Below, piece after piece: positions 36,712 to 42,682 of a stretch of 64,000 nt of DNA (the stretch's first letter is position 1; every line of letters begins with the position of its first letter). The stretch lies in NCBI GenBank assembly GCA_027013225.1, contig JALUXU010000058.1, positions 1 to 64,000 of the forward strand. The letters run 5' to 3'. The position numbers and the translations under genes were made by a program. Origin of the DNA: Acidihalobacter sp. GTDB taxonomy: Bacteria; Pseudomonadota; Gammaproteobacteria; DSM-5130; Acidihalobacteraceae. Under the pieces are notes generated by a model that worked only from the letters and a program-made list of their open reading frames with translations, ran no database searches and was not told the DNA's origin.

Positions 36712-38616
36712 GTGTCGAAATCGATGTCTCAATTGCAATTACGCAACGTTTCGCTTTCCATTGCTGGCAAACCGCTTCTCGATGAGGTCTTTTTGACGCT
36801 CGAGGTCGGCGAGCGATGCTGTCTCGTGGGGCGCAATGGCGTGGGCAAGTCCACTCTTTTACGGGTGATTTCAGGCGAGCAGCAAGTCGATTCCGGAGAG
36901 ATTATCCGTCGGGCTGAATTACGTATTGCCTGTCTAGGGCAAGATGTTCCGACCGAAATATGCGGCGGTGTTTACGAAGTGGTTGCGCAGGGCCTTGGTT
37001 CATTGGGCGCCTTGTGTGCCGAATATCATCAACTTGCCGATGCGATTTCTCACTCATCAGATGCAGGTCTCTTCAAGCGTTTCGAAGCCGTGCAACAGCG
37101 ACTCGAGGCCGAAGATGGATGGCGCATCGGCCAGCGCGTCGATACGGTGCTGAGCCGCATGAATCTCGATGGAGGGGCGGCGTTCGCTGATTTGTCGGGC
37201 GGGTTGAAACGGCGCGTCTTATTGGCGCGGGCACTGGTTACCGATCCCGAAGTGTTGCTGCTCGATGAACCCACCAACCACCTCGATATTGAGGCTATTG
37301 GCTGGCTGGAGACTTTTTTAGCGGATTTTGCTGGCAGTATCATATTCGTAACCCACGATCGCGCGTTTGCTCAGGCGCTGGCGACAGCTGTTCTCGATTT
37401 GGATAGAGGGCGGTTGAAGCGCTATGACTGCAGTTATTCAGACTATACCCGCCGCAAGCAGGCGGACCTGGAGGCCGAAGCTATACAGCAATCGCAATTC
37501 GATCGGCGCTTGGCACAGGAGGAAACATGGATTCGAAAGGGCATTGAGGCGCGCCGCACCCGTAATGAAGGCCGGGTGCGGGCATTGAAAAGCATGCGCG
37601 AAGCGCGTCAGGCCCGCCGCCAACGCATCGGACAGGTTTATTTTGAGCTGGATAGCACGAAAAGTTCGGGTAAGCGTGTGATCGAGGCCAAAGGGCTGGG
37701 CGTGAGCTTCGCTGGCCGACCCATCGTGCGCGATCTCGACTTGACGCTTTTGAGAGGAGACAAACTTGGCATCATCGGACCCAACGGCATAGGAAAGACG
37801 ACGATCTTGAGGCTGTTAACCGGCGATTTGAAACCGGATGTCGGCGAGTTGCGCTTTGGCACCCGGCTGGAAGTGGCCTATTTCGATCAGCAGCGCGTTC
37901 AGCTCGATTTGGAAGAGACTGTGGTCGATTATGTCGGTCAAGGGAGAACACACGTAACGATCGGAGGGCGAGAGCAGCACGTCATGGGATACCTCCAGGA
38001 TTTTTTGTTCTCTCCGCAGCGCGCTAGAACACCGATTCGGGCTTTATCTGGTGGAGAGCGGAATAGACTATTGTTGGCGCGTTTGTTTACCCGTCCGGCT
38101 AATTTGCTCATTCTTGACGAGCCCACCAATGATCTGGACGTCGAGACGTTGGAAATGCTCGAAAGTTTGTTGGTCGCTTACGAAGGCACCTTGATTCTCG
38201 TCAGCCATGACCGGAATTTTCTTGATAATGTCGTGACCAGTACCCTTGCTTATAAAGGAGACGCCCATTTTGTCGAATACGTGGGAGGGTATCAGGATTG
38301 GTTGCGGCAACGCCCAACCGAAAAAACCGACAATAAAGAACCCAAAGCGCCTGAGTCTCCAAGATCCAAGCCGGCTTGCCGTAACGCCCGTAAACTCTCT
38401 TTCAATCAACAACGCGAGCTCGATGCCCTGCCGGAGCACATAGCGGAACTCGAGGATGAGCAGGCCGCTCTAAACGCGCGCCTGGGCGATCCAGCATTGT
38501 ATCGGGAAGCGCCCGAGCAGGTGCGCGATTTCCAAAAACAGCTGGAGCGCATAAACGCAAAGCTTGATCAAGCTTTCCAAAAATGGGAAACTCTGGAGGC
38601 CCTGAGAACCGGTTGA
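36712..38616 (+). CDS. ABC-F family ATPase (Uup-like)
   Basis: Two ABC domains: GRNGVGKST / GPNGIGKTT; LLLDEPTNHLD / LILDEPTNDLD; coiled-coil C-terminus. Confidence 0.95.
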   Translation: MSKSMSQLQLRNVSLSIAGKPLLDEVFLTLEVGERCCLVGRNGVGKSTLLRVISGEQQVDSGEIIRRAELRIACLGQDVPTEICGGVYEVVAQGLGSLGALCAEYHQLADAISHSSDAGLFKRFEAVQQRLEAEDGWRIGQRVDTVLSRMNLDGGAAFADLSGGLKRRVLLARALVTDPEVLLLDEPTNHLDIEAIGWLETFLADFAGSIIFVTHDRAFAQALATAVLDLDRGRLKRYDCSYSDYTRRKQADLEAEAIQQSQFDRRLAQEETWIRKGIEARRTRNEGRVRALKSMREARQARRQRIGQVYFELDSTKSSGKRVIEAKGLGVSFAGRPIVRDLDLTLLRGDKLGIIGPNGIGKTTILRLLTGDLKPDVGELRFGTRLEVAYFDQQRVQLDLEETVVDYVGQGRTHVTIGGREQHVMGYLQDFLFSPQRARTPIRALSGGERNRLLLARLFTRPANLLILDEPTNDLDVETLEMLESLLVAYEGTLILVSHDRNFLDNVVTSTLAYKGDAHFVEYVGGYQDWLRQRPTEKTDNKEPKAPESPRSKPACRNARKLSFNQQRELDALPEHIAELEDEQAALNARLGDPALYREAPEQVRDFQKQLERINAKLDQAFQKWETLEALRTG

Positions 38617-39135
38617 GGTTGCTTGGGCCGCGCAATGGATGGCAAGCAGTCCAGAAGGAAATTGAGCTTTCCAGTGGTTTCCAGCTGAGTTGTCCGAACT
38701 TCTGCGAAGACCCTCGAAATCATAAAGATGCGTTGACGAGGGTCGTTACCTTCTTCAACCTCGAGCATTTGTAAACGGTATCTGATTTCGATCCTGACAA
38801 AATCACCCAAGCATAAATCGCCATGCTCCTGGCGACGTACTGATTGAACGAGCAAGGTAGATTTGGCGTATTACGCTATGCTGCGATATATCACTGCAGT
38901 CTGGTGATCGAAGTCTCCTAAAAGACGTGTGACAATTTTGCTTTATTTGAAGGAGCCGATGAGCTGGTAATGGCGTGATATGTTTTCACGCCGAAAGACA
39001 TTATGAATTCTACGCTTTGGTTTCATAAATAAATTTTGACCACTAACCATGCCTCAGGTTTTCTTCCAGAGCACCCTTGATCGCTACATCAGCATCATGG
39101 ATGTCCTTCGCGTAAACATAATAATGAGGATCTAA

Positions 39136-40293
39136 GTGTTGGCGGAATCCTTTTCTGAGCTTGATTTTGACCGAATTCTCGTAGAAAGAGCGCATGCGAA
39201 TGGAATCGCAAAACCAAGTGAGCTGCAAACCCAGCTCATGCCTGCATTGAGGAGTGGACAAAACGTTCTATTGCGTGCGAGCGACGGCGGCAATCAAAAA
39301 AGCGGCTATCTTTTGCCATTGATGCAGCACCTTCTCGGTACGGAGCCGCTGGAAGGGAAGGGGCCGCGAGCCTTGATTCTTTCGCCGAGTCGAGATGTTG
39401 CGATGCAAATCGGCCGCGACTTGAAGGCCCTTGGCAGTGGTACCCCGTTACGATTTGGGGCAGTGGTTGGAGGACGCCCTTATCCCACACAGCATCAATT
39501 ACTCAGGCGGCCGCTGGATATCCTCATTGCCACGCCTTCGCGCCTGGCGGACCATATGCGTCGCGGCCATGTGCCATTCGAACGCTTGCAGCTGCTGCTT
39601 GTGGACGCTGTCGATGAAATGTTAAGTGGTGGCATGATTGATGATGTAGATTTCATCATCGCATCAACCAAGCAAACTTCGCCGCAAACTCTTTTGCTTT
39701 CTCGCCATATTCATTCATTGGTAGAAATCTATTCGCAACGCATTCAAGGAGAAGCGCGACGCATTGAACTGGCTGTGGGGCAATCGGATGAACAAAATAT
39801 AGGAGCAGAGATGAGCGCGCTTGAAAAATCCAAAGGAGGCCCTAGGCGCAGATCACCCTATGGTCGCCTTATTCAATCGGGCAGGCCATCTGCCCACAAA
39901 AATGCCCGCAAACCCTCCACCGGTGGTGACAAAGGCGCTGGCAATGGGAGGCGAGGAGCAGGGAAAGCGGCGGGAGAACCTCAGAAAAAATCTCAACTCG
40001 GGAATAGAGGCAAATCATCACGTAGTAACGGTCGGCGTACGGGTAAGAATCCACGGCAGGTCGAGGTTCGCTTCCCCAGCGATTATGCCAACGGTCCACG
40101 CAAGACGCCCGATGCGGCCGATGTGGTGGAACAGCATCGGGAAGTGAAGCGGCATGAACCATCCAGCCAATACCTGGCTGATTATGGTTTTTCCAAAAGA
40201 ACAAAGGAACGCAAGCCAGTCACCATTACCTATCGTAACAAGGGCCGTAAAGCGGCTCGCTCCGGCGAAGAATCGGATAACAACAAATCCTGA
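39136..40293 (+). CDS. Degenerate DEAD-box-like RecA1 domain protein with basic low-complexity C-terminus
   Basis: Q-motif-like PSELQ, LILSPSRDVAMQI (motif Ia-like), LIATPSRL (Ib-like), but ASDGGNQKSG in place of AxTGxGKT and LVDAVDEML in place of DEAD; no second RecA domain. Confidence 0.82.
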   Translation: MLAESFSELDFDRILVERAHANGIAKPSELQTQLMPALRSGQNVLLRASDGGNQKSGYLLPLMQHLLGTEPLEGKGPRALILSPSRDVAMQIGRDLKALGSGTPLRFGAVVGGRPYPTQHQLLRRPLDILIATPSRLADHMRRGHVPFERLQLLLVDAVDEMLSGGMIDDVDFIIASTKQTSPQTLLLSRHIHSLVEIYSQRIQGEARRIELAVGQSDEQNIGAEMSALEKSKGGPRRRSPYGRLIQSGRPSAHKNARKPSTGGDKGAGNGRRGAGKAAGEPQKKSQLGNRGKSSRSNGRRTGKNPRQVEVRFPSDYANGPRKTPDAADVVEQHREVKRHEPSSQYLADYGFSKRTKERKPVTITYRNKGRKAARSGEESDNNKS

Positions 40294-40299
40294 TGCGGC

Positions 40300-41064
40300 T
40301 CAAGCACCGCGACTCACCGGCAGTTGACCCCAGCTTTGTGAGGTCGGCATGACTTCGATGTGATTGATGTTCACGTGTTCGGGCAGTTGAGTGGTCCAGT
40401 AAACGATCTCAGCGATGTCTTCAGCCGTGAGGGCTTTGGTCCCTGAATAGACTTGGCGCGCTTTGTTTGCATCTCCCTTGAAGCGCACCAGGGAAAATTC
40501 AGTTTCCGCCAATCCGGGTTCGATGAGGCTCACCCGTACGTGGGCGCCATGCAAGTCCGCACGCAGATTGCGGGAGAACTGCTGGACGAAGGCTTTGGTC
40601 GCCCCGTAACAGTTACCGCCGGGATAGGGCCAGCTGGCCGCGATCGATCCTATATTGACGATATGTCCACGGCGACGCTCCACCATGCGGGGTAGTATTG
40701 TTCGGGTGACATGGAGCAATCCTTTGATGTTGGTGTCCACCATCACTTCCCAATCGTTGGGATCGGCTCGATAAGCCGGCTCCAACCCTACCGCCAGGCC
40801 GGCGTTGTTTACCAGCACATCTATAGAGGCGAATGCATTGGGCAATGCTGCCAACGCTTTTTCCACCGCTTTGGCATTGCGCACATCCAGCACCAGAGGG
40901 AAAATCAAATCGTGTTCGCCTATGGTTTTTTTCAGTCTCTCCAGCCGTTCGCTTCGCCGTGCGCAGGCAATGACTCGCCAGCCTTCAGCAGCGAAGCGGC
41001 TAGCGATGGCGGCGCCAAAACCCGAGCTGGCGCCGGTGACAAGAATCGTTTTGTTTTCGGACAA
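40300..41064 (-). CDS. SDR-family oxidoreductase (YdfG-like)
   Basis: VTGASSGFGAAIASRFAAEGWRVI, NNAGLAVG, YGATKAFVQQFS. Confidence 0.95.
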   Translation of the reverse strand: MSENKTILVTGASSGFGAAIASRFAAEGWRVIACARRSERLERLKKTIGEHDLIFPLVLDVRNAKAVEKALAALPNAFASIDVLVNNAGLAVGLEPAYRADPNDWEVMVDTNIKGLLHVTRTILPRMVERRRGHIVNIGSIAASWPYPGGNCYGATKAFVQQFSRNLRADLHGAHVRVSLIEPGLAETEFSLVRFKGDANKARQVYSGTKALTAEDIAEIVYWTTQLPEHVNINHIEVMPTSQSWGQLPVSRGA

Positions 41065-41161: not shown

Positions 41162-41884
41162 TCAAGGTTGGCAATCCAGCCAGGCTGGGATCATGGCAAC
41201 GGCTTGACGTAAGGACTTTCTATGTTCACGCCAGTTAGGATCATAGCAAGCCACTAGATGCCAGAAAGCCTGCGAATGATTGAGATGCACGGTGTGAGCG
41301 AGTTCATGGATGAGCACATGGCGAACAAGATTTTCCTTGAGAAACATGAGCTTCGCGTTCAAGCTGATGGCGCCTTCCCGGGTGCAACTGCCCCAGCGTG
41401 TGCGCTGTAGGCGTATGCTCAGTTTCTGATAGGAAAGGTCAGTTTGTGCGCACAGTGCGTCAAGCCGCTTTGCAAGCTCGTTTCGTGCATATTTTTTGAG
41501 CCATTCACGCAGCTCCCAGCGTATAGTTTCGGGGGCGTTTGCATCGTGTCGCAAGTGCAAGACGTTTCCTTTTTGCCTTAGCCCGGCACGGCTCGACTCC
41601 AATTCCTGATGTCTGATGAAAAATGTTTCGCCTGTCAGAGGCAAGTGCAAGCGATCGAGTGTTCCCGAACGAGGCAAGGGCTTGGTTTTGGCGAGTTGCC
41701 GCAGAATCCATTCGCGTTTGCTGTGGACGAAGGCGGCCGCTTCGGACCGACTGACATGAGCGGGATGAGTGATCGTTACCTGGCCGTACGCAGATACACT
41801 TATACGCACATGACGGGCTCGGTGCGAGATACGGAAACGGTAGCTTGCAGGCAGCTTGTCGGGAGCAACAGGTAGATTCATCAT
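41162..41884 (-). CDS. YgjP/M48-type metal-dependent hydrolase
   Basis: RWGSCTREGAISLNAKL, HELAHTVHLNHSQAFW; start Met46 of the ORF. Confidence 0.93.
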   Translation of the reverse strand: MMNLPVAPDKLPASYRFRISHRARHVRISVSAYGQVTITHPAHVSRSEAAAFVHSKREWILRQLAKTKPLPRSGTLDRLHLPLTGETFFIRHQELESSRAGLRQKGNVLHLRHDANAPETIRWELREWLKKYARNELAKRLDALCAQTDLSYQKLSIRLQRTRWGSCTREGAISLNAKLMFLKENLVRHVLIHELAHTVHLNHSQAFWHLVACYDPNWREHRKSLRQAVAMIPAWLDCQP

Positions 41885-41929
41885 GGTGTCGCACGGCGTC
41901 TCGGTATCTTGGTTCAACAGGATTGTCTC

Positions 41930-42682
41930 ATGAATGATCAGCAACTCATACGCTACAGTCGGCAGATCATGCTTCCACAAATCGATTATGCGGGGCAAAA
42001 GCGTTTGCTTGATTCCCATGCCCTGGTGGTCGGGCTCGGTGGGTTGGGGTCACCAGTCGCTTTGTATTTGGCCGCGGCAGGGGTGGGCACCCTGACACTG
42101 GCCGATTTCGATTATGTCGAACTTTCCAACCTTCAGCGTCAGATCGCGCATACGACGGGCCGCATCGATCAATTAAAGGCCGAATCGGCCGCTGCGGCGC
42201 TAGAGGCGCTCAATCCTGAAATACGAATCGAAAGTGTTACTGAACAGTTTACGCCAGAGGTGTTCAAGCAGTATGTCGAACGCGCCGATGTGATTGTCGA
42301 TTGCACCGATAATTTCGCTTCCCGTTTCGCTCTGAACGCTTTGAGCATCGAAACCGGCACGCCTCTCGTTTCCGGCGCGGCGATCCGCTTCGAAGGCCAG
42401 ATTACAGTTTTCGACCCGCGCCGCGAAGAGAGTCCCTGTTATCGCTGCTTGTATCCGCAGGCGGGGGAAGAAGCGGATACGTGTAGCCGTAACGGGATTC
42501 TCGCTCCCGTTGTCGGCATGATCGGCACCGCCCAAGCCACCGAGGCGATTAAAATGCTTACCGGCGCGGGAGAGCCGCTCGTCGGGCGCTTGTTGTTGCT
42601 CGACGCTTTGCAGATGGAATGGCGGCAGATTCGCTTGCGGCGCGATCCGCGTTGCCCTGCCTGTGGCGGTATCCATCAATAA
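41930..42682 (+). CDS. MoeB/ThiF-family adenylyltransferase
   Basis: RYSRQIMLPQID, VVGLGGLGSPVALYLAAAGVGTLTL, DCTDNFASRF; CYRC and CPAC zinc motifs. Confidence 0.95.
   Translation: MNDQQLIRYSRQIMLPQIDYAGQKRLLDSHALVVGLGGLGSPVALYLAAAGVGTLTLADFDYVELSNLQRQIAHTTGRIDQLKAESAAAALEALNPEIRIESVTEQFTPEVFKQYVERADVIVDCTDNFASRFALNALSIETGTPLVSGAAIRFEGQITVFDPRREESPCYRCLYPQAGEEADTCSRNGILAPVVGMIGTAQATEAIKMLTGAGEPLVGRLLLLDALQMEWRQIRLRRDPRCPACGGIHQ

Follow-up and report, generated by a model that had tools for sequence, protein, structure and literature searches.

Pseudohelicases are rare, and two have been named in the literature that we found: Utp25 (Def), of the SSU processome of yeast and human, and Deinococcus radiodurans PriA, Utp25 having been called the second proposed pseudohelicase after PriA (PMC9539457). 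Utp25 is conserved and functional without ATPase activity, and it combines a DEAD-box fold and degenerate motifs with a disordered extension and an RNA-related role (PMC9539457). The protein described here resembles Utp25 in these respects and differs from it in others, since Utp25 is eukaryotic and of unrelated descent, keeps both RecA domains and carries its extension at the N-terminus (PMC9539457), whereas our protein lacks RecA2 and has a C-terminal extension with conserved motifs of its own. PriA is also a bacterial helicase descendant that lost the Walker A lysine lineage-wide and retained nucleic-acid binding; unlike the present protein, it is an SF2 DNA replication-restart protein and not a DEAD-box protein, and it is not known to have lost its second helicase domain (PMC4504706). 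In the open-access literature (subscription papers being outside the scope) we found no bacterial DEAD-box pseudohelicase. Among active enzymes, the canonical SrmB-side helicases of Gammaproteobacteria (L006–L011 and L036–L054), whose nearest curated models are CsdA-Psy1082 and SrmB, share with our protein the GG and Ib motifs, about 40% identity in RecA1 and a basic, G/R/N-rich C-terminal tail, but they keep GKT, DEAD, SAT, RecA2 and motif VI and lack its SDYA / ADYGFS / KPV..YR block.

The gene lies in a 64,000-nucleotide stretch of Acidihalobacter sp. DNA (the window), where an earlier note, made from the sequence alone, had described an intact ORF coding for a pseudo-helicase. Translation indeed gives a single frame of 385 residues without interruption (Table 1), and several stops occur on the reverse strand in register with it. 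The true start is more likely the TTG codon than the preceding GTG, because the TTG is invariant in all five orthologues and follows a GAGGA sequence by 8 nt. The seeming invariance of the TTG start and of GAGGA across two genera raises the possibility of translational control of this gene.

Table 1. Features of the pseudo-DEAD-box gene and its surroundings; residues are counted from GTG 39136, and the last three rows refer to other loci
Feature	Position	Strand	Remarks
Pseudo-DEAD-box gene	39136..40293	+	385 codons from GTG 39136; TTG 39139 the likelier start
Shine-Dalgarno GAGGA	39126..39130	+	5' of TTG 39139; invariant in 5/5 orthologues
RecA1-like domain, residues 1-212	39136..39771	+	Pfam DEAD; AlphaFold2; Foldseek
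Q motif remnant, residues 23-31, G..KPSELQ	39202..39228	+	P27 and Q31 kept 5/5
Degenerate motif I (Walker A), residues 48-55, ASDGGNQK	39277..39300	+	Catalytic Lys gone 5/5
Motif Ia, residues 84-89, PSRDVA	39385..39402	+	P, R and A kept 5/5; Glu to Asp 5/5
Near-invariant core, residues 105-137, LRFGAVVGGRPYPTQHQLLRRPLDILIATPSRL	39448..39546	+	Holds GG and Ib RNA-contact motifs
Degenerate motif II, residues 157-160, DAVD	39604..39615	+	Glu gone 5/5; both Asp kept 5/5
Degenerate motif III, residues 189-191, SRH for SAT	39700..39708	+	Ala190 and Thr191 0/5
Basic linker replacing RecA2, residues 213-308	39772..40059	+	Charge about +17; predicted disorder
C-terminal motif 1, residues 311-321, VRFPSDYANGP	40066..40098	+	Conserved in orthologues
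C-terminal motif 2, residues 341-353, EPSSQYLADYGFS	40156..40194	+	Conserved in orthologues; local pLDDT rise
C-terminal motif 3, residues 360-372, KPVTITYRNKGRK	40213..40251	+	Conserved in orthologues
uup, ABC-F ATPase, upstream neighbour	36712..38616	+	Conserved in 5/5 genomes
SDR oxidoreductase, convergent neighbour	40300..41064	-	Conserved in 5/5 genomes
YgjP-like metallopeptidase, neighbour	41162..42019	-	Conserved in 5/5 genomes
uup near canonical helicase, L091	10381-12267
uup near canonical helicase, L182	10837-12771
uup near canonical helicase, L194	2679-4565

The proposal that the N-terminal 210 or so residues form a DEAD-box RecA1 domain was borne out: Pfam DEAD (PF00270) matched residues 29–189 (E 3.4e-22, 79.4 bits against a cut-off of 26), which places the protein among the DEAD-box homologues, and phmmer aligned residues 13–202 with RecA1 domains in the PDB, among them those of Hera, CshA and DeaD. 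No other Pfam domain was found in the whole ORF, Helicase_C (PF00271) included, and motif VI of RecA2 is absent from all five orthologues, in agreement with the claimed absence of the second RecA domain. AlphaFold2, run with 35 canonical relatives, gave mostly pLDDT 91–98 for residues 1–212 (80 at motif I), and the best Foldseek matches were all DEAD-box RecA1 domains (CshA, DeaD-type and eIF4A), with target-normalised TM scores of 0.88–0.92; the alignment consisted of canonical relatives and contained no other member of the pseudo-family, so that this fold is partly imposed.

None of the features that mark an active DEAD-box enzyme (the motif I lysine, DEAD, SAT and a RecA2 domain with motifs IV–VI) is present. 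The family alignment confirmed the altered motifs that had been read from the window: A-SDGGNQK stands in place of A-QTGTGKT in motif I, DAVD in place of DEAD and SRH in place of SAT. We scored the motifs at the alignment columns that 95% or more of 20 canonical relatives share, reading these columns in the five pseudo-proteins, each such parent-conserved position in one protein counting as a cell. At the position of the catalytic lysine (Lys54) the orthologues have Q, R, G, G and G, motif II occurs as DAVD, DGVD, DKAD or DKTD without Glu158 in any of them, and motif III reads SRH, AGR or SDA. One apparent Walker A match, in L002, sits inside its low-complexity tail. The RecA1-only architecture would suit one half of a split helicase whose RecA2 is supplied in trans, but motifs I–III are dead regardless, and we found no free-standing DEAD-type RecA2 in the five genomes, where all strong Helicase_C matches fall in ORFs that also contain DEAD; this effectively refutes the split arrangement, to which we give a negligible probability.

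Some nucleotide-binding residues persist. All five orthologues retain Phe6, Pro27 and Gln31 of the Q motif, Gly51 of the P-loop and the two aspartates of motif II, and residual nucleotide binding is possible because the Q-motif residues and these aspartates remain. They would also agree with a nucleotide-sensing pseudoenzyme, in which the Q motif and the altered P-loop bind ADP or ATP without hydrolysing it, and the nucleotide toggles the binding of RNA or of a partner. We regard such a sensor as improbable, since the phosphate-binding lysine is gone in all five proteins, identity to canonical relatives is lowest around motif I (0.27), and motif I varies between the genera (NQK, GRT, GGT) as a selected site would not.

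The RNA side of the domain is better preserved. Motifs Ia, GG and Ib are established RNA contacts in DEAD-box structures, and among the parent-conserved cells 15 of 15 were kept in GG, 23 of 25 in Ib and 18 of 30 in Ia; the near-invariant VVGGRPYPTQHQLLRRPLDIL core is among the RNA-side features retained by the five orthologues. About 20 residues, including Tyr58, Asp87, Arg94, Arg114, His120, Arg142, Pro147 and Glu149, are invariant in the pseudo-family and rare or absent in its parents. In comparison with the 20 canonical relatives, the net charge of the RNA-face half (Ia to Ib) is +7.8 against +3.8 and that of the former ATP-side half (Q motif and motif I) is −2.8 against +2.5, in comparisons whose ranks ignore kinship. 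We read this as a RecA1 domain that no longer depends on ATP and has specialised in its RNA face.

Behind RecA1, residues 213–385 form a tail with a pI of 10.8 and a charge of about +22, rich in G, R, K and S. The earlier note had rightly seen a basic, disordered tail in the place of RecA2 (pLDDT was below 50 at residues 243–340 and 355–379), and its K/R/G/S/N-rich composition is true, but it had missed that constraint in the protein is strongest over the last 75 residues or so. While the linker (residues 213–308) varies in length and sequence among the orthologues, the C-terminal block holds three motifs with a consensus across both genera (V[RH]FPSDYA[NS]GP, EP..QY[LS]ADYGFS and KPV[TN]..YR.K.R), and pLDDT rises locally to 66 at residues 341–350, in the ADYGFS motif. 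The block had no match among PDB sequences and no credible one in Pfam, where the best was FrpC (E 0.081, in one of the five members). A profile of the tail, run against 369 genomes of the class, gave clear matches only in this order and two marginal ones outside it (E 0.003 and 0.007). The canonical relatives, too, have a basic, G/R/N-rich C-terminal end, from which the three motifs are missing, and the tail of the pseudo-protein might have come from such parent tails. The C-termini of L007, L010, L046 and L052 faintly resemble the last motif (PNVSYRTNN, GPNVSYRTNN in L007; PKISFASRPQKR; PNVRYKKRGK).

The order comprises five genomes in all: that of the window (G000), one of the same genus and three of a sister genus. 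A whole-genome search recovered orthologues in the same-genus genome (47–50% identity) and in the three sister-genus genomes, so that the gene is present and intact in all five, always in the order CBS-domain protein, uup, pseudo-DEAD, SDR and YgjP-like. All four other genomes carry the dead, RecA2-less form and none retains GKT, DEAD or a helicase C domain, which rules out a recent local decay beside intact relatives. Among 80 loci from a scan of wider genome contigs, the closest had about 37% identity. A mobile, phage or defence origin was rejected: there was no plasmid match and no PADLOC match, and the matches to phage records were distant and helicase-like, below 60% identity and none covering 80% of the query.

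Between uup and the gene there is a gap of about 520 bp, with no clear operon. This non-coding leader (38617–39135 in the window) has a comparable length in the five genomes, of about 450–640 bp; in sequence, it shows conservation only inside the sister genus (CTTTTGAATTTTAAGGCGAATGAAAGACTTC is one example) and little between the genera. This poor conservation, together with the lack of any match in Rfam, ruled out an RNA leader element, and a search for a consensus promoter of the gene found none.

Selection was estimated by NG86 among the three genomes with countable synonymous change, where dS was mostly above 1 and partly saturated. Under these conditions dN/dS was 0.040–0.091 for RecA1, 0.155–0.251 for the linker, 0.026–0.040 for the C-terminal block and 0.08–0.13 for the whole gene, in comparison with 0.12–0.24 for uup, 0.10–0.16 for SDR and 0.19–0.28 for the YgjP-like gene; RecA1 and the C-terminal block thus lie below the neighbours, and all values are far below 1. 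In the window lineage dS is saturated, which leaves less power, and pN/pS against genome G001 was 0.41 for RecA1, 0.22 for the C-terminal block and 0.30–0.48 for the neighbours. The window copy is the most diverged of the five and has the shortest tail, as might be expected of a slowly decaying gene, that is, a pseudogene of an ordinary helicase; this reading is hardly tenable, since the gene is intact in all five genomes of two genera, with dN/dS of 0.03–0.13 and a C-terminal block tighter than the neighbour genes. For the family, dN/dS and the intact orthologues refute it, and for the window lineage taken alone the saturated dS gives the test less power.

A pseudo-helicase, and not an ordinary helicase, is therefore well supported from sequence comparison, as the motifs are dead in all five relatives and neither of the findings that would have spoken against it, intact relatives or relaxed dN/dS, was made. 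Judged by the sequence and structural criteria for pseudohelicases (PMC9539457), the helicase fold is kept (AlphaFold2 and Foldseek, with the fold partly imposed by the canonical alignment), the catalytic residues are lost in a clear helicase homologue (Pfam and motif scoring), and the gene is conserved and under selection.

In two RecA1 trees the five pseudo-proteins formed one clade (support 100) within a canonical helicase clade apart from RhlE and DeaD, and their grouping with the SrmB-side clade had a support of 94/97. The AU test rejected a joint clade with DeaD (p 0.006) and with RhlE (p 0.015), a type with a similar RecA1 whose canonical form coexists with the pseudo-protein in four of the five genomes; a placement with RhlB was not rejected (p 0.13). 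The full-length tree put the canonical clade on the same side as SrmB and RhlB of E. coli (97), the branch leading to SrmB being long, and for these reasons we call it SrmB-side and nothing narrower. The NCBIfam equivalog cut-offs for SrmB, CsdA and RhlE were not reached (best SrmB, 117.6 bits against 507). The five genomes yielded no canonical helicase belonging to the parent clade, which argues for an enzyme converted and not duplicated and leaves an extra paralogue beside an intact parent unsupported; an active enzyme of the parent clade appears to have been replaced by the dead form in the ancestor of the order. Two further families of this class likewise have a canonical SrmB-side helicase near uup, within about 6 kb, and the linkage of uup with these helicases may accordingly be old or ancestral.

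Canonical DeaD- and RhlB-type helicases occur in all five genomes. They are the only canonical DEAD-box helicases in the window genome (2.27 Mb; contigs C5, C47 and C58), from which the RhlE orthologue of the four relatives is missing, in keeping with its smaller size. Because these enzymes persist, the dead RecA1 could regulate them, as a decoy or cofactor for the partners or RNA of DeaD, RhlB or RhlE, without itself having a part in RNA assembly. Pseudoenzymes are frequently competitors or allosteric partners. Interactions with other helicases have been reported for Utp25, with Dhr2 (PMC9539457), and for D. radiodurans PriA, with the replicative helicase (PMC4504706). We nevertheless consider a regulator unlikely, as the window genome keeps the gene without RhlE, no partner site can be named, and the retained RNA motifs and the raised positive charge of the RNA face indicate RNA.

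The explanation that we favour, and think probable, is a functional, lineage-specific DEAD-box pseudohelicase acting as an ATP-independent RNA-binding adaptor, perhaps in 50S assembly beside Uup. A role in RNA or ribosome binding, or as a scaffold, had also been proposed in the earlier note, and we infer the same from the retained RNA-contact motifs, the charge shift on that face and the invariant linkage to uup. In the ancestor of the order, a canonical and probably SrmB-side helicase lost its motif I, II and III residues together with the whole second RecA domain, while the RNA-contact surface of RecA1 was kept and tightened; the protein carries a basic, disordered linker with a new and strongly conserved terminal motif block. 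Such a protein would have no ATPase activity and, without this activity and without RecA2, should neither unwind RNA nor open and close around it. Its RecA1 platform and basic tail would instead keep hold of structured RNA, leaving the docking of a partner to the C-terminal motifs. An isolated DEAD-box RecA1 domain is expected to bind RNA weakly, so that RNA affinity would need to come from the tail.

The most likely setting would be 50S subunit assembly or rRNA folding, given the linkage to uup and the probable SrmB-side descent. In E. coli, Uup is tied to 50S assembly and suppresses the defect in 50S subunits that a bipA mutant shows (PMC6723617), and the absence of SrmB impairs large-subunit formation (PMC6736130). 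More tentatively, this may be the first bacterial DEAD-box pseudohelicase, the product of an order-wide conversion to an ATP-independent RNA clamp or scaffold that lost RecA2, made its RNA face more positive, gained a new docking block and acts with Uup in ribosome assembly.

Since one DEAD-box clade was converted in place while sister families have intact relatives, the family could help to tell helicase functions that need ATP from those that require only the holding of RNA. The motifs that were lost (I, II and III, with RecA2), set against those that were kept (GG and Ib), amount to a natural experiment on the RNA surface of RecA1, and the new C-terminal motif block offers a concrete bait for finding partners.
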